Part shown: positions 11,929-62,043 of the stretch, piece after piece
How the letters are laid out: each line of letters begins with the position of its first letter
Numbering within the stretch: position 1 is the first letter of the stretch
Assembly: GCA_902601895.1 (NCBI GenBank)
Contig: CACKOU010000003.1
Span: 1-64,000 of the forward strand
DNA from: an uncultured Pelagibacteraceae bacterium
GTDB lineage: Bacteria > Pseudomonadota > Alphaproteobacteria > Pelagibacterales > Pelagibacteraceae
Direction: 5' to 3'
DNA: 64,000 nucleotides
Translations under genes and position numbers: made by a program
Notes under the pieces: model-generated
What the model was told of the DNA's origin: nothing
Seen by the model: only the letters and a program-made list of their open reading frames with translations
Databases searched by the model: none

Positions 11929-14213
11929 TTTGGTTTTTTGTAATTAATCACTCCTGCAGAATAAGCTGCCACAGATGCTAAATTTAATATGTCAGAAGTC
12001 GATGATCTTAATGGAGCAATTTCAATTGCTTGACCTAAACCGATTAATAGTGGTCCTATAACTTTTGCACCACCTAAGGTTTTCATTATTTTATAAGTTA
12101 TAGCAGCACTATGCTGTCCAGGCATAATCAATATATTTGCATTACCAACAATCTCAGAGAATGGATAAAGATCTTTATATTCATCGCTTAAGGCCACATC
12201 AGGTTGCATATCTCCATCAAACTTAAAGTTAACCTTTTTATTTTTTAAAATTTCTACTGCGTCTCTAATATGTTTAGTTCTAGCAGTAATTGGTTGGCCA
12301 AAAGTTGAGTGTGAAAGAAAAGCAACTTTTGGTTCAAATCCAAATAATTTTGCAACTCTAGATGCAGAAATAGCTATTTCAGAAAGTTGTTCAGATGTTG
12401 GATATTCGTGAACACTTGTATCCGCAATAAAGACCGTTTTTCCTTTATTTACAATCATGTTTAATCCAAACATAATTTCTCCTGGTCTTGCATCTATGAC
12501 CTTTTTTACTTTATCAAGAGATTGTCCGTATCTTCTAGAATTTCCTGTAACCATTGCATCTGCATCACCACATGCAACCATGCAAGATCCCCATATAACT
12601 CTGTCATTTCTAACCATTTTATCACAATCTCTTTCAAGTAATCCTTCTGTTCTTTGAAGTTTTTTAAATAGGTAACTCACATATTTTTTTCGTTCGTCAC
12701 TCAAAGTAGAGTTCACAATCTTAATATCAAAGTTTTCTCCGTAACCAATCTCTCTAAGTTTTTCTTTAACCACTTTTTCTTTAGCAACTAAAATAGGCGT
12801 ACCTAATCCACTATTTTTAAATGCTATTGCAGCCTTCAAAGTATTTTCATCTTCACCATCAGCAAATACGACTTTTTTGTTTGTTTTTTTTATTTGGTTG
12901 TTTATTCCCTGCATAATAGTCACAGATGGATCAAGTCTTTGTTTTAGCTGTTCAGAATATTGATCAAAATTTTCTATTTTTTTTCTAGCAACACCAGATT
13001 TTATGGCAGCTTTTGCGACAGCTACTGGTATTACACTTATTAACCGAGGGTCAAAAGTAGATGGAATAATATATTCTTTTCCATAATTAGGTCTTTCGCC
13101 ACCCATTGCAGCCGCCACTTCGTCAGGCACAAATTCTCTTGCAAGTGAAGCAATAGCATTAGCTGCTGCGACTTTCATTTCTTCATTAATAGTTTTTGCT
13201 CTAACATCTAATGCTCCTCTAAATATGTAAGGAAACCCAATTAAATTATTTACTTGGTTTGGATAATCGGATCTACCAGTTGCTATAATTGCATCATTTC
13301 TAACTTCTTCTATATCTTCAGGTTTAATCTCAGGATCTGGATTTGCACACGCAAATATAATTGGATTTTTAGCCATTTTTTTAACCATACTCTTTTTTAC
13401 AACACCTGCAGCGGATAAGCCTAAAAATACATCTGCATTTTTCATTGCATCATCTAAATTTTCATCCTTAGTCTGTACTGCAAATTCTTTTTTCCAAGAA
13501 TTAATATCTTTTCTATTTTTATTTATTACTCCTTTTGTATCCAACATTTTAATATTATTTTTGGGAATACCTGTGCTTCTAAATAATTTTGCACATGCCA
13601 TAGCTGCAGCACCCGCACCATTAATTACTATTTTAATTTTTTTTAAGTTTTTTTTTGCAATATCAACTGCGTTAATTAATGCAGCTGTTGTTATGATTGC
13701 CGTTCCATGTTGATCGTCATGAAAGACAGGAATATCTAGAATTTTTTTTAATTCTTCTTCAATTATAAAACAGTTTGGTGCTGCAATGTCTTCAAGATTT
13801 ATTCCACCAAAACTTTTTGCTATATGCTTTATAGAATTAATTATTTCTTTTGTATCTTCTGTGTCTATTTCTAAATCTATAGAGTCAATATCTGCAAATC
13901 TTTTAAATAGAACAGCTTTTCCTTCCATTACTGGTTTTGATGCTATCGCACCTAAATTTCCTAGCCCTAATATTGCTGATCCATTACTTATTACTGCAAC
14001 TAGATTTCCTTTTGTAGTATATTCATATGCTAGCTCAGGATTGTCTGCTATCGCTTTAACAGGAGCAGCAACACCTGGAGAGTAAGCTAGGGCCAAGTCT
14101 CTTTTTGTAGTAACAGGCTTAGATGAAACGATCTCTATTTTGCCAGATTTATCATTAGTATGAAAATCCAAAGCTTCTTTATCAGAATAATGTTCAATTT
14201 TGTTTTTTTTCAT
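11925..14213 (-). CDS. maeB: NADP-dependent malic enzyme with C-terminal phosphotransacetylase-like domain
   Basis: The 762-residue protein matches MaeB in length. The N-terminal half holds the malic-enzyme domains (AYSPGVAAP, VFHDDQHGTAI, NGAGAAAMACA, FACANPDPEI). The C-terminal half (about 430-762) is a phosphate acetyl/butyryl-transferase-like domain, which in MaeB enzymes is generally regulatory, sensing acetyl-CoA. It converts malate to pyruvate with CO2 and NADPH, an important anaplerotic and NADPH step in SAR11 metabolism. It is transcribed alone, convergent with the BON lipoprotein and divergent from murJ across a 43-bp gap. Confidence 0.96.
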   Translation of the reverse strand: MKKNKIEHYSDKEALDFHTNDKSGKIEIVSSKPVTTKRDLALAYSPGVAAPVKAIADNPELAYEYTTKGNLVAVISNGSAILGLGNLGAIASKPVMEGKAVLFKRFADIDSIDLEIDTEDTKEIINSIKHIAKSFGGINLEDIAAPNCFIIEEELKKILDIPVFHDDQHGTAIITTAALINAVDIAKKNLKKIKIVINGAGAAAMACAKLFRSTGIPKNNIKMLDTKGVINKNRKDINSWKKEFAVQTKDENLDDAMKNADVFLGLSAAGVVKKSMVKKMAKNPIIFACANPDPEIKPEDIEEVRNDAIIATGRSDYPNQVNNLIGFPYIFRGALDVRAKTINEEMKVAAANAIASLAREFVPDEVAAAMGGERPNYGKEYIIPSTFDPRLISVIPVAVAKAAIKSGVARKKIENFDQYSEQLKQRLDPSVTIMQGINNQIKKTNKKVVFADGEDENTLKAAIAFKNSGLGTPILVAKEKVVKEKLREIGYGENFDIKIVNSTLSDERKKYVSYLFKKLQRTEGLLERDCDKMVRNDRVIWGSCMVACGDADAMVTGNSRRYGQSLDKVKKVIDARPGEIMFGLNMIVNKGKTVFIADTSVHEYPTSEQLSEIAISASRVAKLFGFEPKVAFLSHSTFGQPITARTKHIRDAVEILKNKKVNFKFDGDMQPDVALSDEYKDLYPFSEIVGNANILIMPGQHSAAITYKIMKTLGGAKVIGPLLIGLGQAIEIAPLRSSTSDILNLASVAAYSAGVINYKKPN

Positions 14214-14256: not shown

Positions 14257-15783
14257 ATGAATTTAATTAAGTCAACAGGCACATTTAGTCTGTTTGTTAT
14301 ACTAAGCAGAATTTTAGGATATATTAGAGATTTTTTTATAGCTATTTATCTTGGTTCAGGACCTATTGCTGATGCATTTTTTGTAGCATTTAGAATACCA
14401 AACACTTTTAGAAGATTATTTGCAGAAGGTACTTTTAATGCAGCGTTTGTTCCATCTTATACATCGGAACTTCTGTCGAGTAAAAGAAAAGCTCAAAAAT
14501 TTGCAAACTCGGTATTTAATTTATTAGTCTTAGCACTTTTAAGTCTAACAATACTGGTAGAGATTTTCATGCCAAGCTTTATAAAATTGATCGCCCCTGG
14601 CTTCTCAGACTTAGGTGAAAAGTTTAAATTAGCAGTTGATTTAACAAGAATTACTTTCCCTTTTTTATTTTTCATAAGCATAGCTTCTTTTTTTTCAGCA
14701 ATTTTAAATTCTCACAATAAATTTGCCGCCGCCGCCGCCGCTCCGCTCTTTTTAAATGTAATATTAATAATATGTTTCCTCTTTATAAAAAAAGACACTG
14801 TTTTAGTTTACTATATAAGTTATGCAATAACATTCGCGGGAATTGTACAGTTTGTATTTTTAATTATTTTTACTAGAAAATACTTTAATCCAAGTTTTAA
14901 ATTCAATTTACAAATAGATAACAAAATAAAATTCTTTTTTAAAAAGCTTTTGCCGAGTATATTTTCATCTGGCGTTACTCAAATTAACATATTAGTTGGA
15001 ACAATAATTGCCTCTTTCCAAGCAAGTGCAGTTTCATATTTGTATTATGCAGATAGAATATACCAGATAAACTTAGCAATAGCAGGGATTGCGATTGGTA
15101 TAATTATTTTACCCAACCTCAGTAGGCATATTAAGAGTAAAAATAAAATAAAATTGGAAATTTTACAAAATAAATCTTTGGAGTTGAGTTTATTTTTAAG
15201 TCTTCCTGCAAGTCTTGCATTAATTTTTGCTTCTGAAGAAATTGTTTCTGCACTTTTTGGTTATGGATCTTTTAATGAAGAAAGTGTTAAAAATTCAGCT
15301 CTTGCATTATTTTATTTTGCATTAGGTCTACCTGCATTCTCAATGATAAAAATATTTTCAAGTTTTATATTTGCAAGAAATGATACAAAAACACCTTTTT
15401 ACTTTTCATTAATTTCTGTAATTTTGAATATTGTTATTAGCGTATCTTTATTTAGTAAAATAGGTTTTATTATAATTCCTATAGCAACGAGTATTTCTTC
15501 ATGGTTGAATGGATTCTTACTAATGGTATTTGTCCTAAACAAAAATTACTTTAACTTCAACAATTCATTTTTTAAACAGCTATTTAAAATATTTATTTCT
15601 AATTTAATTTCTTTGGGATTATTTAAAATATTAATAAATTATTTTGGCAATTATCTTATATTTTCGAATAGTTATAAATTTTTAGCAATTATATTAATAG
15701 TTCTTTTAACTTTTGCTTTTTATTTGTTGATTTCAATACTCATTAATGCCTTTAAAATATCTGATATTAAATTAAACTATTAA
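14257..15783 (+). CDS. murJ: Lipid II flippase MurJ (MviN)
   Basis: The 508-residue polytopic protein has about 14 predicted membrane segments and MurJ landmarks: the start [17 protein letters not shown], the segment [19 protein letters not shown] with its conserved arginines, and FNAAFVPSY. It flips lipid II across the inner membrane for wall synthesis. It heads the large plus-strand block and is followed after 2 bp by trpS. A GCC trinucleotide tract inside encodes the Ala run of [11 protein letters not shown], which is also Ala-rich in alphaproteobacterial homologues. Confidence 0.96.
14725..14742 (+). repeat. GCC trinucleotide tract inside murJ
   Basis: Five consecutive GCC codons followed by GCT encode six alanines. 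Most other alanine codons in the window end in A or T, so a run of GCC codons stands out and could be a slippage-prone microsatellite. Confidence 0.85.
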
Positions 15784-23079: not shown

Positions 23080-24596
23080 AATCTATTCTAGAAAATAAAG
23101 CTTATCTATATTTAATATGTTTATTTTTAGGTATAATAACATCATTTAGTTTACCACCATATAATTTTGTATTTCTTAATTTTTTTTCACTCCCGATATT
23201 ACTTTATATATTGATAAATTATGCCCATAAAAAAATCATATCGTTTTTTGTTGGTTGGGTCTTTGGATTTGGTTATTTTATTTCTAACCTTTATTGGATT
23301 ACAAATTCTTTGACATATGATGTAAATTTTAAATTCATTATTCCATTTGCATTAATATTAATTCCTTTATTTTTGGGAATATTTTATGGTTTGGTAACTT
23401 TTTTAAGTAGCTATTTTAATTTGAAAAATAAACTCTCATCAGTTTTAATTTTTTCGCTTTTTTTTGGTGGGATTGAATTTCTAAGAAGTTTTATTTTAGG
23501 TGGTTTTCCTTGGAATTTATTAGTCTTTAGTATTTCAAATAACTTACCTTCTTTACAAATTTTATCCTATGTAGGAACCTACTCATTAAATTTATTATCT
23601 ATGACTATTTTCTTGTTACCAATAATATTTTTTAATAAGTATAAAAGTTCAGCATCAGTTATTATTTTTTGTTTCAGTTTAATTCTAGTAGTAATAAATT
23701 ACTCGTATGGATATATTAATATTAAAAATTTTGAAAAAAAAAAATACGACAAGCTAGATTCCGTTATTCGAGTTGTTTCTCCAAATTTTCCAATTGAAAG
23801 ATTCTTAACAAATCAGAGTCCAGAAAAAAATATTGATGAATTACTCACTTTAAGTAATCCAAATAAATCTCAAAAAAAAATATTTATTTTTCCTGAGGGT
23901 ATAATTAGTAGTATTTATTTTAAAGATCTCAAATTATTTAAAAATATCTTCAAAAAAAAATTTAATGTAAATCATAAAGTCATTTTGGGGATTAATAGTA
24001 TTAAAGAAAATAAAATTTATAATTCTTTAGTAGTATTAAATTCTGACACAGAATTATTATATAAATATAACAAGAATAAACTAGTTCCATTTGGAGAATT
24101 TTTACCTTTTGAAAATTTCTTCAAAAGAGTAGGTTTAAAAAAAATAACCCAAGGGTATCAATCATTTTCAGCTGATAATAAAAGAAAAATTTTGAACATT
24201 GATAAATTAAAATTTATTCCACTTATTTGTTATGAAATTATTTATTCAGGAAAAATTAATCCAAATAAAAAATATTATGATTTTATATTAAATATTTCTG
24301 AGGATGGTTGGTTTGGCAAATCTATTGGACCTGCTCAACATTTATATCATTCGATATTCAGATCAATTGAAGAAGGTAAAAATGTTATTAGATCTACAAA
24401 TAATGGAGTGTCTGCTTTTGTTAATCCCAAAGGTCAAATTATTAAACAAATTAGTGAAAAAGGATATTTTGATATTAATAAAATCAAACGTGTTGATAAA
24501 ACTTATTTTGCTGAACATGGTAATAAGATCTTCTTTTATTTTGTCCTAATTTATACTACTTTCATTATGATATTAAAAATAAGGGAGAATAAATGA
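23076..24596 (+). CDS. lnt: Apolipoprotein N-acyltransferase
   Basis: The 506-residue membrane enzyme has six to eight N-terminal transmembrane helices and then a periplasmic nitrilase-like domain with the Glu-Lys-Cys triad: Glu in FPEGII (about 267), Lys in NKLVPFGEF (about 331) and Cys in IPLICYEII (about 385). It adds the third acyl chain to lipoproteins such as the BON and LptM-like lipoproteins of this window. The start is a TTG overlapping the ybeY stop; the end overlaps metK as ATGA. Confidence 0.96.
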
Positions 24597-25756
24597 AAAA
24601 AGATTACTTATTTACTAGCGAGTCAGTATCCGAAGGTCATCCAGATAAAGTTTGTGATAGAATTTCAGATATGGTTGTAGATACATATTTGGCTGCTGAA
24701 CCTCAATCGAGAGTTGCTTGTGAAACATTAACAACAACAAATAAAGTTGTCTTAGCTGGTGAAGTAAGAGGTCCAGAAATAAAAAAAGAAGATTTAATAG
24801 AAAAAGTTAGGCACTGCATCAAAGACATTGGATATGATCAAGAAGGATTTACTTGGAAAGAGGCAACATCAGTCGAAAGTCATTTACATTCTCAATCAGC
24901 TGATATTGCTATGGGTGTAGATTCCTCTGGAAATAAAGATGAAGGTGCAGGTGATCAAGGAATTATGTTTGGTTATGCGTGTAATGAAACTGATGTGCTG
25001 ATGCCCGCTCCAATACATTATTCTCATAAAATTTTAAGACTTATGGCTGAGGATAGAAAATCTGGCAAATTAAAAAATATAGAACCAGACTCAAAAAGCC
25101 AAATTACAATTGAATACAAAAATGGTAAACCTTCATCTGTAAAATCTGTAGTTATATCGACACAACACTCTCCAGATATCAATCAAGCTCAAGTTAGAGA
25201 ATTGGTAAAACCTTATATTGAAAGATCAATACCAAAAGAATTATTGAGTTCATTAGATGAAAAGGAAATATATGTGAACCCAACAGGAAATTTTGTAATT
25301 GGAGGTCCTGACGGTGACAGTGGTTTGACTGGTAGGAAAATTATTGTTGACACCTATGGTGGAGCAGCACCACATGGAGGAGGTGCATTTTCTGGAAAAG
25401 ATCCAACCAAAGTTGATAGATCAGCTGCTTATGCATCCAGATATTTAGCAAAGAATGTTGTTGCATCTAAAATTGCTGATAAATGTCTTATACAATTAGC
25501 TTATGCAATTGGAGTATCAAAACCTTTATCTATTTATGTCGATTTGTTTGTTAACGACGATGAGAAAAATAAGCATGTTGAAAAGCTTATAAATGAGAAT
25601 TTTGATCTAAGCCCCAGAGGAATAAGAGAAATGCTTGGTCTGAACAAACCTATCTATGAAAAAACATCAGCCTATGGGCATTTTGGAAGAATGCCCGATG
25701 ACATGGGATGCTTTTCATGGGAAAAGACAGATAAATCAGACATATTTAGCAAGTAA
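24593..25756 (+). CDS. metK: S-adenosylmethionine synthetase
   Basis: The 387-residue enzyme shows the MetK signatures: [16 protein letters not shown] at the N-terminus, [12 protein letters not shown] (about 121-132), [15 protein letters not shown] (about 260-274) and a normal C-terminus. It makes SAM from methionine and ATP. Its start overlaps the lnt stop by four bases, so there is no room for a leader riboswitch; expression depends on the upstream operon. It is followed not by trmB or rimP but by a promoter/terminator segment and nusA. Confidence 0.98.
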
Positions 25757-25762
25757 ATAAAG

Positions 25763-25790
25763 TTGAATATTAAAAAAAAATAAATATATT
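25763..25790 (+). promoter_or_regulatory. Putative sigma70-type promoter upstream of nusA
   Basis: TTGAAT (25763-25768) and TATATT (25785-25790) are spaced by 16 bp, each close to consensus. The predicted start near 25797 lies upstream of the terminator hairpin at 25813-25839, so a transcript from here would read through that hairpin before reaching nusA. AT-rich sequence raises the chance of a fortuitous match. Confidence 0.45.
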
Positions 25791-25812
25791 TCACTAACAT
25801 TATTGAATTTTC

Positions 25813-25839
25813 AAAATGGGCTTCGGCCCATTTTTTTTT
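25813..25839 (+). terminator. Intrinsic terminator between metK and nusA (possible nusA attenuator)
   Basis: A perfect 9-bp stem, AAAATGGGC paired with GCCCATTTT, is closed by a UUCG tetraloop and followed by a T-run to 25839. This is a textbook rho-independent terminator and one of few GC-rich stems in the window. It ends only 11 bp before the nusA ATG. It may end the metK operon, and if nusA is transcribed from the upstream putative promoter it would also act within the nusA leader. Confidence 0.92.
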
Positions 25840-25850
25840 AGGTATAACAA

Positions 25851-27404
25851 ATGTTAAATAGAAGAGCAGATAAATTAGAATTATTGAGAATTGCAGAAGC
25901 AGTAGCTTTAGAAAAGTCAATCGATAAAGAACTTATAATTGACTCGATGGAGAATGGTATAGCTAAAGCAGCTAAATCAAAATTTGGATCTGATAATGAA
26001 ATTAAAGTTCAAATAAACAGAGATAATGGAGACATTGGAATTTATAGAAGATTGTTAATTGTTGAAAACCCAGAAAATTCAAATATTGAAATTAGCTTAG
26101 ATGATGCAAAGAAACTAGATGTAATTTATCATGATAAAAAAGTTGGTGACGAAGTTTTGCAACCTTTACCTTCATTTGATTTTGGAAGAATAGCAGCTCA
26201 AACAGCTAAACAGGTTATTAGTTTTAATGTTAGAGAGGCGGAAAGAGAGAGGCAATATAACGATTTTAAAGATAAAAAAGATACAATAGTAAGTGGTATT
26301 GTAAAAAGGTTAGAATATGGAAATGTCATAGTTGACTTGGGAAGAACAGAGTCAATTATTCAAAAAAATGAAATGATACCTAGAGAGAATATAAAAGCTG
26401 GTGATAGAATAAAAGCATACTGTTTAGACGTAAGAAGAGAAACGAGAGGCCAGCAAATATTTCTTTCAAGGGCACACCCTAAATTTATGGAAAAACTTTT
26501 TATTCAAGAAGTTCCAGAAATTTATGAAGGACTTATAGAAATAAAATCATCTTCAAGAGATCCAGGTAGTAGAGCAAAGATTTGTGTTAAAGCAATTGAT
26601 ACATCTTTAGATCCAGTTGGAGCATGTGTGGGTATGCGAGGAAGCAGAGTACAAGCTGTTGTAAACGAGCTACAGGGTGAAAAGATAGATATAGTTAATT
26701 GGTCTGAAGATCCAGCTGTTATAGTTGCTAACGCTTTGTCGCCGGCTGAAGTTCAAAGAGTAAATGTGGACGAGGAAGGAAGAAAGCTTGATGTGATTTT
26801 AACAGAAGAAAATTTAAGTAAGGCAATCGGTAGAAGAGGTCAAAATGTCAGATTAGCAACAAAACTTATGAATTATGAAATAAATATCATGACAGACCAA
26901 GAGGATTCTGAGAGAAGACAAATTGAGTTTAAAGAGAAGACGGATAATTTTGTAAAAAATTTAGAATTAGATGAAACGCTTGGACAGTTGTTGGTTGCTG
27001 AAGGATTTTCATCAATAGATGACATAAAGGATAGTAATACAGAGTCACTAATGAAAATCGAGGGTATAGAACAAGATACTGCAATAGAATTAATTGATAG
27101 AGCAAAAGAATTTTATAAAAAAGATCAAGAGGAAATTGCAAATAGAATAAAAAACTTAGGTTTAGAAAACGATTTGATTAATCATAAAGGTTTAACACCT
27201 GGAATGTTGGTTACGCTTGGAGAACAAAAAATATTAACTCTAAATGATTTCGCAGATCTTGCATCAGATGAATTAACAGGTGGATATGATATCGTAAAAG
27301 GAGAAAGAGTAAGAATTAAAGGTTACCTAGAGGAATTTGCTCTTTCTAAAAAAGAAGCTGATGATTTAATTATGTCTGCAAGAGATATAGTTTATAAAGA
27401 TTGA
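25851..27404 (+). CDS. nusA: Transcription termination/antitermination factor NusA
   Basis: The 517-residue protein has the NusA N-terminal domain (starting MLNRRADKLELLRIAEAVA), an S1 domain (about 135-200; SGIVKRLEYGNVIVDLG), two KH domains (GACVGMRGSRV and KAIGRRGQNV) and two C-terminal helix-hairpin repeats. It binds RNA polymerase and controls pausing, termination and antitermination. A TATAAC at 25842-25847 just before the ATG could give a leaderless transcript. The rimP gene that usually precedes nusA and the ylxR gene that often follows are both missing; infB follows after 10 bp. Confidence 0.98.
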   Translation: MLNRRADKLELLRIAEAVALEKSIDKELIIDSMENGIAKAAKSKFGSDNEIKVQINRDNGDIGIYRRLLIVENPENSNIEISLDDAKKLDVIYHDKKVGDEVLQPLPSFDFGRIAAQTAKQVISFNVREAERERQYNDFKDKKDTIVSGIVKRLEYGNVIVDLGRTESIIQKNEMIPRENIKAGDRIKAYCLDVRRETRGQQIFLSRAHPKFMEKLFIQEVPEIYEGLIEIKSSSRDPGSRAKICVKAIDTSLDPVGACVGMRGSRVQAVVNELQGEKIDIVNWSEDPAVIVANALSPAEVQRVNVDEEGRKLDVILTEENLSKAIGRRGQNVRLATKLMNYEINIMTDQEDSERRQIEFKEKTDNFVKNLELDETLGQLLVAEGFSSIDDIKDSNTESLMKIEGIEQDTAIELIDRAKEFYKKDQEEIANRIKNLGLENDLINHKGLTPGMLVTLGEQKILTLNDFADLASDELTGGYDIVKGERVRIKGYLEEFALSKKEADDLIMSARDIVYKD

Positions 27405-27414
27405 GAAATGAAAA

Positions 27415-29634
27415 ATGGAAAAAAAAAAATTAAAGTTATCAATTTCTGGCACATCCAAAAAAACAATAAATAGTATAGAGCAAGCCAAATCTCACTCGAA
27501 AAATGCAGTTGTAATTGAAAAAAAATCGTCAAGATTTGCAAATAAGCCAAATTTTTCTAGAGGTAATAAATCTTCAGAAATTAGGTCACAAAATAATAAT
27601 ATTTCAAAACAAAAAACTTTTTTTAAACCATCAACACCTATTTCGTCTGATTTTGAAAAAAGAAAATTAGCAGAGCAGAGAGCCACAAGAAGACTAAAGG
27701 GTGAGAATGTTTATAAAGAAAATAAATCAAATAAAATTAGTGTTAAGAGGAGAGAATTAAAACTTACTGTTTCCCAAGCATTAAATGAAGATGAAATTAG
27801 AGTAAGATCTAGAAGTTTAGCTTCATTAAAAAGAGCAAAACAAAAAGAAAATAGACTACTTACAAAGGATAGCAAAAAAGAAAGTTTTAAACCAATTAAA
27901 AGAGATATCAATATTCCAGAAGTCATTACTATAAGAGAATTAGCAAATAGAATGGCTGAACAATCTAGTAGTATTATAAAGCACCTGATGGGCATGGGGG
28001 TAACAGTTACAATAAATCATACTATTGACTCAGATACTGCAGAATACTTGGTAAAGGAATTTGGCCATAATCCTGTTAAAGAAGAAAAGGCAGAGGAAAT
28101 TTTAGAAAAAATAAAAGAAATAAAAACACAGAATTTAAAAAGTAGAGCTCCAATTGTTACGGTGATGGGTCATGTAGATCACGGAAAAACTTCAGTTTTG
28201 GATGTTCTTAGAAAAGCAAATGTTGTGTCTGGTGAATTCGGAGGTATTACTCAGCATATTGGAGCTTATCAAATAACTCATGAGACAAATAAAATTACTT
28301 TTATAGATACACCAGGTCACGCAGCTTTTACAGAAATGAGAGCCAGAGGATCAAAATTAACAGATATAGTTATTTTAGTTGTTGCAGCAGACGATGGAGT
28401 TAAACCACAAACAATAGAGTCAATTAAACACGCTAAAGCAGCAAAAGTTCCAATAGTCGTTGCTATAAATAAGTGTGATCTACCTGAAGCTGACCCTCAA
28501 AAAATTAAAAACCAGCTTTTAGAATACGAATTAATAGCTGAAGATTTATCTGGGGATACTTTAATGGTTGAAATTTCTACCAAAACAAAACAAAATTTAG
28601 AAAAATTAGTTGAGAGTGTAATTTTACAAGCAGAAATATTAGACCTAAAAACAGATTTTGATACTGATGCAAAAGGGATAGTTTTAGAGTCCAAGATTGA
28701 TATAGGAAGAGGTCCAATCGCAAATGTAATTATTACTGCCGGAACTTTAAATAAAGGTGATTATTTTGTTAGTGGTTTAAAATGGGGTAAAGTGAGAGCG
28801 ATAATAAATGATCAAGGAAAACAGATTGATACAGCAGAACCTTCAACTCCAATTGAAATATTAGGTATAAATGGAGCAGCTAAATCAGGAGATGATTTTA
28901 TAGTATTAAAAACTGAAAAAGAGGCAAAATCACTTTGCGATGGAAGAATACAGGAAGCAAAAGATATTAAAAATCCATTATCTTTTGTAACTCAAGATTC
29001 TGCATTTAAAGATTCATCATTAGAGGAATTAAATATCATCATTAAATCAGATGTTCATGGTTCTTCTGAGGCCATAAAAAACGCCATAAATCAAATTAAA
29101 CATGAAGAAGTAAAACCTAAGATACTTTTATCAGATATTGGCATGGTTACAGAGACTGACGTAACATTAGCCAAAGCATCTAATGCCGTAATCATTGCCT
29201 TTAATGTAAAACCTAGCAAAGAAGCTAAGAAAAGAGCTGAACAAGAAAAGATTACCATATCCAACTTTAATATTATTTATGAAGTTTTAGATTTTATAAA
29301 AAGTAAAATGTCTGGCCTATTAACCCCAGAAATTGATGAAAAAATAATTGGTACAGCTGAGATTCTTGAAATATTTAAGGTTTCAAAAGTAGGTAAAGTG
29401 GCTGGTTCAAAGGTTACAGATGGAGAAATTACTCAAGACTCCAGCGCAAGAGTAATTAGAGATGGGGCTATAATTTTTAATGGTAAAATAGGCACTATTT
29501 TTAGAGAAAAAAATCAAACTAAACAGGTATCTGCTGGACTAGAGTGTGGAATAACTTTAAAGGATTTTGTAGATTTCCAGAAAAATGATGTAATAGAAGT
29601 ATATAATTCAACAATAACTGAGAGAACAATATAA
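27415..29634 (+). CDS. infB: Translation initiation factor IF-2
   Basis: The 739-residue GTPase has a Lys/Ser-rich N-terminal region (1-160), an IF2 N-domain (about 165-215), and a G domain with GHVDHGKTS (about 251-259), DTPGHAAF and NKCD, followed by the four C-terminal domains. It positions initiator tRNA on the 30S subunit. It is shorter than the 850-1000 residues of many alphaproteobacteria because the N-terminal linker is trimmed. It overlaps rbfA by one base, as expected in the nusA-infB-rbfA operon. Confidence 0.98.
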   Translation: MEKKKLKLSISGTSKKTINSIEQAKSHSKNAVVIEKKSSRFANKPNFSRGNKSSEIRSQNNNISKQKTFFKPSTPISSDFEKRKLAEQRATRRLKGENVYKENKSNKISVKRRELKLTVSQALNEDEIRVRSRSLASLKRAKQKENRLLTKDSKKESFKPIKRDINIPEVITIRELANRMAEQSSSIIKHLMGMGVTVTINHTIDSDTAEYLVKEFGHNPVKEEKAEEILEKIKEIKTQNLKSRAPIVTVMGHVDHGKTSVLDVLRKANVVSGEFGGITQHIGAYQITHETNKITFIDTPGHAAFTEMRARGSKLTDIVILVVAADDGVKPQTIESIKHAKAAKVPIVVAINKCDLPEADPQKIKNQLLEYELIAEDLSGDTLMVEISTKTKQNLEKLVESVILQAEILDLKTDFDTDAKGIVLESKIDIGRGPIANVIITAGTLNKGDYFVSGLKWGKVRAIINDQGKQIDTAEPSTPIEILGINGAAKSGDDFIVLKTEKEAKSLCDGRIQEAKDIKNPLSFVTQDSAFKDSSLEELNIIIKSDVHGSSEAIKNAINQIKHEEVKPKILLSDIGMVTETDVTLAKASNAVIIAFNVKPSKEAKKRAEQEKITISNFNIIYEVLDFIKSKMSGLLTPEIDEKIIGTAEILEIFKVSKVGKVAGSKVTDGEITQDSSARVIRDGAIIFNGKIGTIFREKNQTKQVSAGLECGITLKDFVDFQKNDVIEVYNSTITERTI

Positions 29635-29999
29635 TGACTAACTTAGGAAAACCAGTCACTCAAAGACAATTAAGAGTTGGTGAAATGATCAAACAAGCTT
29701 TGGGAATGTTATTTATAAGAGATGAAGCAAAATTACCAAATCTATCAACTAAAGAGATAACTGTGACTGAAGTTAGAATGTCTCCAGATTTAAAAACAGC
29801 AAAAATTTTTGTAATGCCTTTAGGAGGAAAAGACGCCGAAGAAGTCGTTGCTAAACTAAAAGAATTTTCATTTGTAATAAGAAAAGTTTTATCAAAAAAG
29901 ATAGTAATGAAATTTTTACCAAAACTATTTTTCGTAAAAGATGATTCTTTTGATTATGCAGAAAAAATTGAAAATTTAATAAAACAAACAAATAAATAA
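29634..29999 (+). CDS. rbfA: Ribosome-binding factor A
   Basis: The 121-residue KH-like protein has the RbfA pattern QRQLRVGEMIKQALGMLF near the N-terminus, VTEVRMSPDLKTAKIFVMPLGG in the middle, and the final strand MKFLPKLFFVKDDSFDYAEKIE. It binds the 30S subunit and helps mature 16S rRNA. It is translationally coupled to infB by a one-base overlap. The truB gene normally between rbfA and rpsO is absent; rpsO begins 10 bp downstream. Confidence 0.96.
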   Translation: MTNLGKPVTQRQLRVGEMIKQALGMLFIRDEAKLPNLSTKEITVTEVRMSPDLKTAKIFVMPLGGKDAEEVVAKLKEFSFVIRKVLSKKIVMKFLPKLFFVKDDSFDYAEKIENLIKQTNK

Positions 30000-30009
30000 G
30001 GAAAAGAAA

Positions 30010-30258
30010 ATGGTAAATAAAGCAAAAGAACTCGCAATTCACGATAAAGATACAGGTTCTTCAGAAGTTCAAGTTGCTCAATTAACAGATAAAATTGAGA
30101 ACTTGTCAAAACATATTAAACAGTTCAAAAAAGATAAACACTCGTCTGTTGGACTTTTAAGAGCAGTAAATAGAAGAAAAAAATTATTAGACTACTTGAA
30201 GAAAAATAAAATGGAGTCTTATAAAGAAGTAATATCAAAATTAAATTTAAGGAAGTAA
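30010..30258 (+). CDS. rpsO: Ribosomal protein S15
   Basis: The 82-residue protein has the S15 core DTGSSEVQVAQLTDKIENL and the 16S-binding segment HSSVGLLRAVNRRKKLLDYLKK. It is about six residues shorter at the N-terminus than most S15 proteins. It binds the central domain of 16S rRNA early in 30S assembly. An AAGGAAAAG purine stretch just before the ATG is the likely ribosome binding site. It is immediately followed by pnp, the classical rpsO-pnp pairing. Confidence 0.97.
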   Translation: MVNKAKELAIHDKDTGSSEVQVAQLTDKIENLSKHIKQFKKDKHSSVGLLRAVNRRKKLLDYLKKNKMESYKEVISKLNLRK

Positions 30259-32331
30259 ATGTTTAAGGTTGTAAAGAAAGAAATAGAAGTAGCAGGAAAA
30301 AAGATTAGTTTAGAAACAGGTAAAATAGCAAGACAAGCAGATGGTGCAATTATAGCTCAGTGTGGAGAAACTGTAGTTTTAGCAACAGCAGTAGGAGCTA
30401 AAAAAGTTAATCCTGATATGGATTACTTTCCTTTGTCAGTAAATTATCAAGAAAAATATTATGCAGCTGGTAAAATTCCAGGTGGATATTTTAAAAGAGA
30501 AGCAAGACCAACGGATAGCGAAACATTAATTTCAAGGTTAATCGATAGACCTATCAGACCACTCTTTCCTGATGAATTTAAAAACGAAGTTCAGGTACTT
30601 CCAACTGTAATATCTTATGACAAAGAAAATGAAGCAGATATTTTATCAATAATCGCTTCATCAGCGGCTTTGTCAATTTCAGGAATGCCATTTTTGGGTC
30701 CTGTTGGTGCTTCTAGAGTTGGCTTTATTAAAGGTGAATACGTTCTTAATCCTACTAAAGCAGAACTGAAGGATTCTAAGTTAGATCTTGTGGTGGCTGG
30801 AACAAAGGATGCGGTTTTAATGGTTGAATCCGAAGCAAGTGGTTTGACAGAGGAGGAAATGTTAAACGCTGTTAAGTTTGGCCATGAAGGGTTTGTTCCA
30901 ATTATTGAGATAATAGAGGAACTAGCTAAAGAATGCAAAAAACCTGATTGGGAAGTTGAGAAAAAAGATCTTTCAGAAGTAAAAAATAAATTAGAGAGTG
31001 AATTTACGGATGAACTTAAAAAAGCATTTTCAATTAAAGATAAACAAGAAAGATCAAATTTAATTTCTGAGATAACTGATAAAGCAAAAAAACTTTATGA
31101 AGAAGATGAGAATTATACAGATCTTGATGTAAATTCTGAACTTAAAAATTTAGAAAAAAGGATTGTTAGAACAGATATTATAAAAAATAAAAATAGAATT
31201 GATGGTAGAGGTCTTGCAGATGTTAGGCCAATTATGTGTGAAGTTGGAATTCTTCCAAGAGTTCATGGCTCTGCTTTGTTTACTCGAGGAGAAACTCAAG
31301 CAATAGTTACAACTACACTCGGTACCTCGGATGATGAGCAGAAAATAGAAAGTCTTGAAGGATTACAAAAAGAGAGATTTATGCTTCATTATAATTTTCC
31401 ACCTTTCTCTGTTGGAGAAACTGGTAGAATAGGTACTGGGAGAAGAGAAATTGGTCATGGAAAATTAGCTTGGAGAGCAATAAATTCTTCTTTGCCTTCT
31501 AAAGAGAGTTTTCCCTATACATTTAGAATTGTATCAGAGATAACTGAGTCAAACGGTTCTTCTTCTATGGCAACCGTTTGTGGTTCATCTTTAGCTTTGA
31601 TGGATGCAGGCGTGCCAATAAAAGAACCAGTTGCTGGTATTGCAATGGGATTAATTAAAGAAGGAGATGACTTCAGCGTACTTTCAGATATTCTTGGAGA
31701 CGAAGATCACTTAGGTGATATGGACTTTAAAGTTGCTGGAACTAAAGACGGAATAACATCTCTTCAAATGGACATTAAAATTACAGGAATAACATTTGAA
31801 ATTATGGAGCAAGCCTTAAAACAAGCAAAAGATGGAAGAATTCACATCCTAGGTGAAATGAATAAAGCTTTATCTAAATCAAGGGAAGATGTTGGAAAAC
31901 ATACTCCTAAGATGGAGAAAATTACTGTAGATAAGAAAGATATTGCTACAGTCATTGGAAAAGGTGGAGCTACTATAAGAGAAATAGTTGAGGTATCTGG
32001 TGCCAAAGTTGACATCAATGACGAAGGTGAAGTTACAGTAGCTGCTCCAGATGAGGAATCAAGAAACAAAGCTATGCAAATGATTAAAGACTTAACTGCT
32101 AAAGCTGAACTCAATAAAATTTACAATGGAAAAGTAATGAAAATTATGGAGTTTGGTGCATTTGTTAATTTCCTAGGAAAACAAGATGGTCTTGTTCATA
32201 TATCAGAGCTTGCTGATAAAAGAGTCGGTAAGGTAACTGATGTCGTAAAAGAAGGTGATGAAGTTAAAGTTAAAGTAATAGGCTTTGATAGAGGAAAAGT
32301 TAAGTTATCAATTAAACAAGCTGCAATATAA
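30259..32331 (+). CDS. pnp: Polynucleotide phosphorylase
   Basis: The 690-residue 3'-5' exoribonuclease has two RNase PH domains (the second around [13 protein letters not shown] and the [15 protein letters not shown] active-site region, about 475-490), a KH domain ([13 protein letters not shown], about 555-567) and an S1 domain at the C-terminus ([15 protein letters not shown]). It degrades mRNA phosphorolytically. Length is normal. It begins directly after the rpsO stop and ends 15 bp before a rhodanese gene. Confidence 0.98.
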
Positions 32332-61983: not shown

Positions 61984-62005
61984 TTAGTATTCTTTTTAAT
62001 TGATT

Positions 62006-62043
62006 ACGCTTCTCATGGCGATTGCGTGGGAAGCGTTTTTTTT
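62006..62043 (+). terminator. Intrinsic terminator after the lysine-rich peptide
   Basis: A 12-bp stem, ACGCTTCTCATG with CGTGGGAAGCGT (two or three G-U pairs in RNA), encloses a 7-nt loop and is followed by eight Ts (62036-62043). It ends the short transcript and touches the stop codon of the convergent CarD gene (62042-62044). On the minus strand there is no T-run after the stem, so it is probably one-directional. Confidence 0.9.

Follow-up and report, generated by a model that had tools for sequence, protein, structure and literature searches.

A hairpin in the nusA leader of SAR11 bacteria as a probable form of the rimP-leader attenuator

Attenuators described ahead of rimP and nusA

NusA is a protein that aids the stopping of transcription. 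The closest described relative of the element reported here is the rimP-leader, a predicted attenuator of rimP-nusA-infB operons whose terminator has a GGGc...gCCC stem (Naville and Gautheret 2010, PMC2965389). In the same work NusA was proposed as the sensor, the choice between RimP and NusA being left open (PMC2965389). In B. subtilis, where the leader is ~180 nt long (PMC2965389), NusA stimulates attenuation in the leader of the operon that encodes it, according to work cited in a review (PMC12288461). In S. agalactiae, the leader of the rimP-nusA-infB operon contains an intrinsic terminator 31 nt past the transcription start, and both short and long RNAs originate from that single start (PMC4448216).

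The window analysed here is the whole stretch formed by the first 64,000 nucleotides of contig CACKOU010000003.1, from an uncultured Pelagibacteraceae bacterium. It belongs to SAR11, a group of very abundant ocean bacteria with streamlined genomes. Ahead of nusA it carries a hairpin that we interpret, with a probability of about three in four, as a form of the rimP-leader attenuator, probably under feedback by NusA. A GGGc...gCCC stem, a U-stretch, a position close to the operon's first gene and the lack of a visible antiterminator are common to both elements (PMC2965389). The U-stretch follows the stem directly in SAR11, as it does in the rimP-leader, and in both the signature is absent from other terminators. 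While the rimP-leader is defined as lying 4-130 nt before the first gene (PMC2965389), the distance from the T-run to the nusA ATG is 8-16 nt across the 90 spacers of the window's genus and 11 nt in the window. The SAR11 element is unlike the rimP-leader in that it abuts nusA with no rimP found, reaches the end of the terminator after ~43 nt and keeps nine T almost invariably. In this comparison rimP is taken as the neighbour that gave the RNA its name and not as part of the RNA itself, and the SAR11 operon as one that begins with nusA.

The other described systems are more distant. The nusA operon of B. subtilis and that of SAR11 both have an intrinsic terminator in the leader, and the NusA dependence that has been shown in B. 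subtilis is here proposed for SAR11 (PMC12288461, as cited there). The S. agalactiae operon differs in starting with rimP and in belonging to a Gram-positive organism; in addition, RNA data are available there, whereas the SAR11 leader is known from its sequence (PMC4448216). The gammaproteobacterial rimP leader, Rfam RF01770, precedes the same operon as the SAR11 element and does not match at the SAR11 leader (16.8 bits against a gathering score of 47), and no known RNA family reaches its gathering score in the metK-nusA region. The SAR11 leader was not found described in the literature searched, and supplementary lists, which lay outside that search, may include it; neither nusA nor metK appears in the main text of the Meyer 2009 survey of P. 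ubique RNAs. The type of element is already known through the published rimP-leader and the idea of NusA attenuation, and the SAR11 case appears to be new.

The metK-nusA spacer in the window and its genus

The spacer between the metK stop at 25756 and the nusA ATG at 25851 measures 94 nt and holds all the elements of the predicted leader (Table 1). The genes that follow nusA, which we take from their translations to be infB, rbfA, rpsO and pnp, are closely packed on one strand, and they are therefore likely to be co-transcribed with it. The truB gene, frequent between rbfA and rpsO, is absent from this position in the window (29634-30258).

Table 1. Coordinates of the metK-nusA locus in the window and the basis of each assignment
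Feature	Position	Strand	Basis
metK (S-adenosylmethionine synthetase), upstream neighbour	24593..25756	+	ORF; three S-AdoMet_synt Pfam domains
-35 hexamer TTGAAT of the putative nusA promoter	25763..25768	+	sequence; 4/6 columns invariant in 75 distinct same-genus sequences
-10 hexamer TATATT, 16 nt from the -35	25785..25790	+	sequence; TATA invariant across the same-genus set
Predicted start (A at 25797) and conserved ACATT, 6 nt past the -10	25797..25801	+	per-column conservation; start inferred
Predicted nusA leader: ~43 nt when it ends at 25839, 54 nt when counted to the ATG	25797..25850	+	inferred from promoter position and sequence
Terminator hairpin AAAATGGGC-TTCG-GCCCATTTT, GGGC/GCCC core	25813..25834	+	sequence; fold; 90/90 same-genus genomes; compensated stem changes between families
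Nine-T run (U-tract)	25831..25839	+	exactly nine in 89/90 same-genus genomes and 29/29 other SAR11 loci
AGG, weak Shine-Dalgarno right behind the T-run	25840..25842	+	sequence
nusA	25851..27404	+	ORF; NusA_N, S1, KH, HHH domains
Genes after nusA: infB (27415), rbfA (29634), rpsO (30010), pnp (30259)	27415..32331	+	ORFs

The hairpin consists of the stem AAAATGGGC (25813-25821), a TTCG loop (25822-25825) and the arm GCCCATTTT (25826-25834). The predicted fold of 25797-25839 reaches -12.3 kcal/mol (z -3.8), a stability equalled by none of 200 shuffles. In the metK-nusA regions of 90 same-genus genomes, metK lies directly ahead of nusA in every case, 89-100 nt away, and each spacer has the GGGC....GCCC hairpin. 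The single same-genus genome that departs from nine T has ten, and across SAR11 as a whole the run is nine in 118 of 119 loci and ten in the remaining one, the nine T of two of the 29 loci from other SAR11 having been read from the printed sequence where the script counted 0. A leader peptide starting from an ATG within the hairpin was considered and rejected, its frame relative to nusA being scattered (44/22/20).

Upstream of the hairpin, the pattern TTG[AT]A[AT]-16-TATA[AT][AT] is present in 86 of the 90 spacers. A per-column count was made on these 86 sequences (75 distinct), and its hexamer conservation, with four of six columns invariant in the -35 and four of six in the -10, is partly by construction, since the sequences were pre-picked by the promoter pattern. 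In the same count, many columns between the two hexamers are free to vary and some A-rich ones are fixed too, while the ACATT columns are ~88-97% conserved and the 6 nt separating them from the -10 are variable. The independent evidence for the promoter is the 86/90 count together with ACATT at the expected start, and the position of both would place the transcription start at ~25797. In this respect the preliminary description holds up well: the perfect hairpin with a UUCG loop and a T-run ending 11 bp before the nusA ATG is confirmed by reading the sequence, the TTGAAT and TATATT hexamers 16 bp apart are conserved with their spacing and start point, and the aligned spacers keep the promoter ahead of the hairpin and the hairpin itself wherever metK and nusA are adjacent.

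The case that the feature exceeds chance is made by conservation and not by match counts in single genomes. Within a single genome, the promoter pattern by itself is no commoner than expected (91 found against 91 expected), and a loose terminator scan likewise stays at chance level (5 found against 6.1 expected). Stronger intrinsic terminators are rare: a scan of 304 kb, made up of the window and 240 kb from one complete relative, yields 10 intergenic candidates, two of which are the nusA-leader element. A further strong terminator-like hairpin with a T-run is found in the window at 62005-62042 (+), 3' of a same-strand gene and facing a gene on the opposite strand. A covariance model of the element gives one strong match, at nusA, in each of 39 genomes out of 41; in the other two, no nusA was found. 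No second strong match was seen elsewhere in the SAR11 genomes. Consistent with this specificity, GGGCNNNNGCCCATTTTTT occurs once in the genome G000, and the signature is absent from its other terminators.

The best other covariance match (E 5.5e-4, in G141) falls on a terminator that separates an apparent proteorhodopsin gene from an apparent ferredoxin gene. Strong intrinsic terminators in this gene context, ending ~25 nt ahead of the start of the ferredoxin gene, are present in two SAR11 genomes (L242:10893-10930 and L270:500-540). Two more loci, L244 (reverse-complement position 13111) and L248 (reverse-complement position 15388), have terminators between an apparent transporter binding-protein gene and the next same-strand transporter gene, which look as if they lowered the expression of the second gene.

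The gene to which the hairpin belongs

In the window alone, the hairpin could be read as an ordinary metK terminator, with nusA transcribed from a near-leaderless promoter past it. It would indeed stop metK transcripts too, and a TATAAC follows the T-run at 25843-25848, one base from the 25842 at which it had been placed. However, a -10-like word is found in only nine of the distinct T-run-to-ATG segments of the genus, and a four-base Shine-Dalgarno word in 63 of the 90 segments, compared with 29% in shuffles. These segments are too short to accommodate a conserved promoter and are enriched in Shine-Dalgarno-like words, both of which argue against a near-leaderless start, and the promoter that is conserved lies upstream of the hairpin.

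Other SAR11 lineages separate the two genes. Between metK and nusA, genera g2-g4 of the window's family (f1) and a second family (f2) have trmB in a gap of 711-851 nt, the gene being identified by TrmB-family matches in f2 and by gap size in g2-g4; TrmB matches are strong in f2, and only weak and partial in the window's genus. Where trmB intervenes, the hairpin stays with nusA and not with metK, the end of its stem being only 22-37 nt ahead of the nusA start. The core is GGGC....GCCC in all 18 other f1 loci and GGGT...[GA]CCC in f2, with pairing kept through compensated changes: an A-T pair of f1 corresponds to G-C in f2, and a C-G pair of f1 to T-G or T-A. These pairs were counted on hairpin-anchored sequences, because in a MAFFT alignment the f2 stems were one column out of register. 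The f2 loci also have a promoter of their own, TTGATT-17-TATA[AG][AG], between trmB and the hairpin (11/11); the promoter is weaker in g5/g6, where the -10 is weak, and is not evident in genera g2-g4. Because the hairpin remains close to nusA with trmB in between, has its own promoter in f2 and shows paired stem changes, the comparison indicates that the element is a nusA leader and not a metK terminator, and a metK terminator followed by a near-leaderless nusA start is highly improbable.

Beyond SAR11, the same hairpin is found ahead of rimP. In 22 of 30 rimP loci from other alphaproteobacteria, rimP is preceded by a GGG[CT]..[GA]CCC hairpin whose tail is T-rich. A strict pattern (GGGC..GCCC with at least 6 T in 8, within 250 nt upstream of rimP) is present at 19 of the 30 loci, at none in the rest of the same-strand upstream and downstream sequence, at three on the opposite strand of that 250-nt stretch and at 0.01 loci per shuffle. 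One of the 30 loci (L225) is cut off and was for that reason wrongly oriented, which makes the fraction a slight underestimate. In alphaproteobacteria outside SAR11 without a detected rimP, a similar hairpin precedes nusA in two of seven loci and is absent from five. In these two, L233 (~43 nt ahead of the aligned nusA start) and L237, a GGG..CCC hairpin is followed by a T-rich tail, which in one of them has nine T. It had been suggested that loss of trmB and rimP brought the metK terminator together with the nusA leader; this does not agree with a hairpin that accompanies nusA where trmB remains and that also precedes rimP in other alphaproteobacteria. A search for rimP itself (PF02576) was positive in 10 of 14 control genomes and in none of 21 SAR11 genomes from two families, so that in SAR11 the leader now abuts nusA.

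NusA as the probable signal

The element is very probably a real attenuator. In the proposed model, RNA polymerase would start at ~25797 from the conserved promoter and, ~40 nt on, would meet a short intrinsic terminator formed by GGGC-loop-GCCC and nine U. When NusA is plentiful, it would bind the polymerase and the forming hairpin, favouring termination and yielding a dead-end RNA of ~43 nt; when NusA is scarce, polymerase would read through into the Shine-Dalgarno and nusA-infB-rbfA-rpsO-pnp. SAR11 NusA retains the N-terminal, S1, KH and HHH domains. We infer the termination efficiency of the leader from its sequence, and the step to NusA feedback from its conserved anatomy, with B. subtilis and S. 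agalactiae as parallels.

The main rival to NusA feedback, since SAR11 has terminators between same-strand genes elsewhere, is a fixed and unregulated partial terminator. Such an element would lower transcription of the nusA operon by a constant factor, compared with metK and with the operon's own promoter, or shield nusA from metK transcription, with no sensing of NusA. Similar terminators do lie 25-34 nt before same-strand genes in a SAR11 genome, after apparent proteorhodopsin and transporter binding-protein genes, and a hairpin with an uninterrupted run of nine T could terminate well without NusA. However, those terminators have other stems, whereas the GGGC/GCCC core is kept throughout the order and in alphaproteobacterial rimP leaders, and the nusA hairpin stays in place when the upstream gene changes. 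Taken together with the autoregulation of the operon by NusA reported for B. subtilis (cited in PMC12288461), this makes a fixed terminator unlikely.

It could also be postulated that the same attenuator responds to another signal, for example translation factors, NusG, nucleotide supply or temperature. IF2, RbfA, S15 and PNPase are further products of the operon, and a cold response of the E. coli operon is described in the literature. Against this, no alternative structure is visible by fold prediction in the ~16 nt ahead of the hairpin, which leaves little room for a sensor beyond the polymerase and its factors, and RimP is an unlikely signal because rimP was not found in SAR11. A signal other than NusA is on these grounds quite improbable.

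The leader is a likely control element for the nusA, infB, rbfA, rpsO and pnp operon in the streamlined SAR11 genomes. That the leader is kept on nusA across two SAR11 families without a detectable rimP favours nusA as the target and NusA as the sensor. More tentatively, a lineage that has lost rimP may have retained the rimP-leader ahead of nusA, where it would act as a self-contained, NusA-responsive terminator of ~43 nt, a natural deletion experiment. If this is true, the GGGC/GCCC stem and the tract of exactly nine U would stay constant because they set NusA homeostasis, and RimP would be excluded as the sensor of a widespread attenuator.
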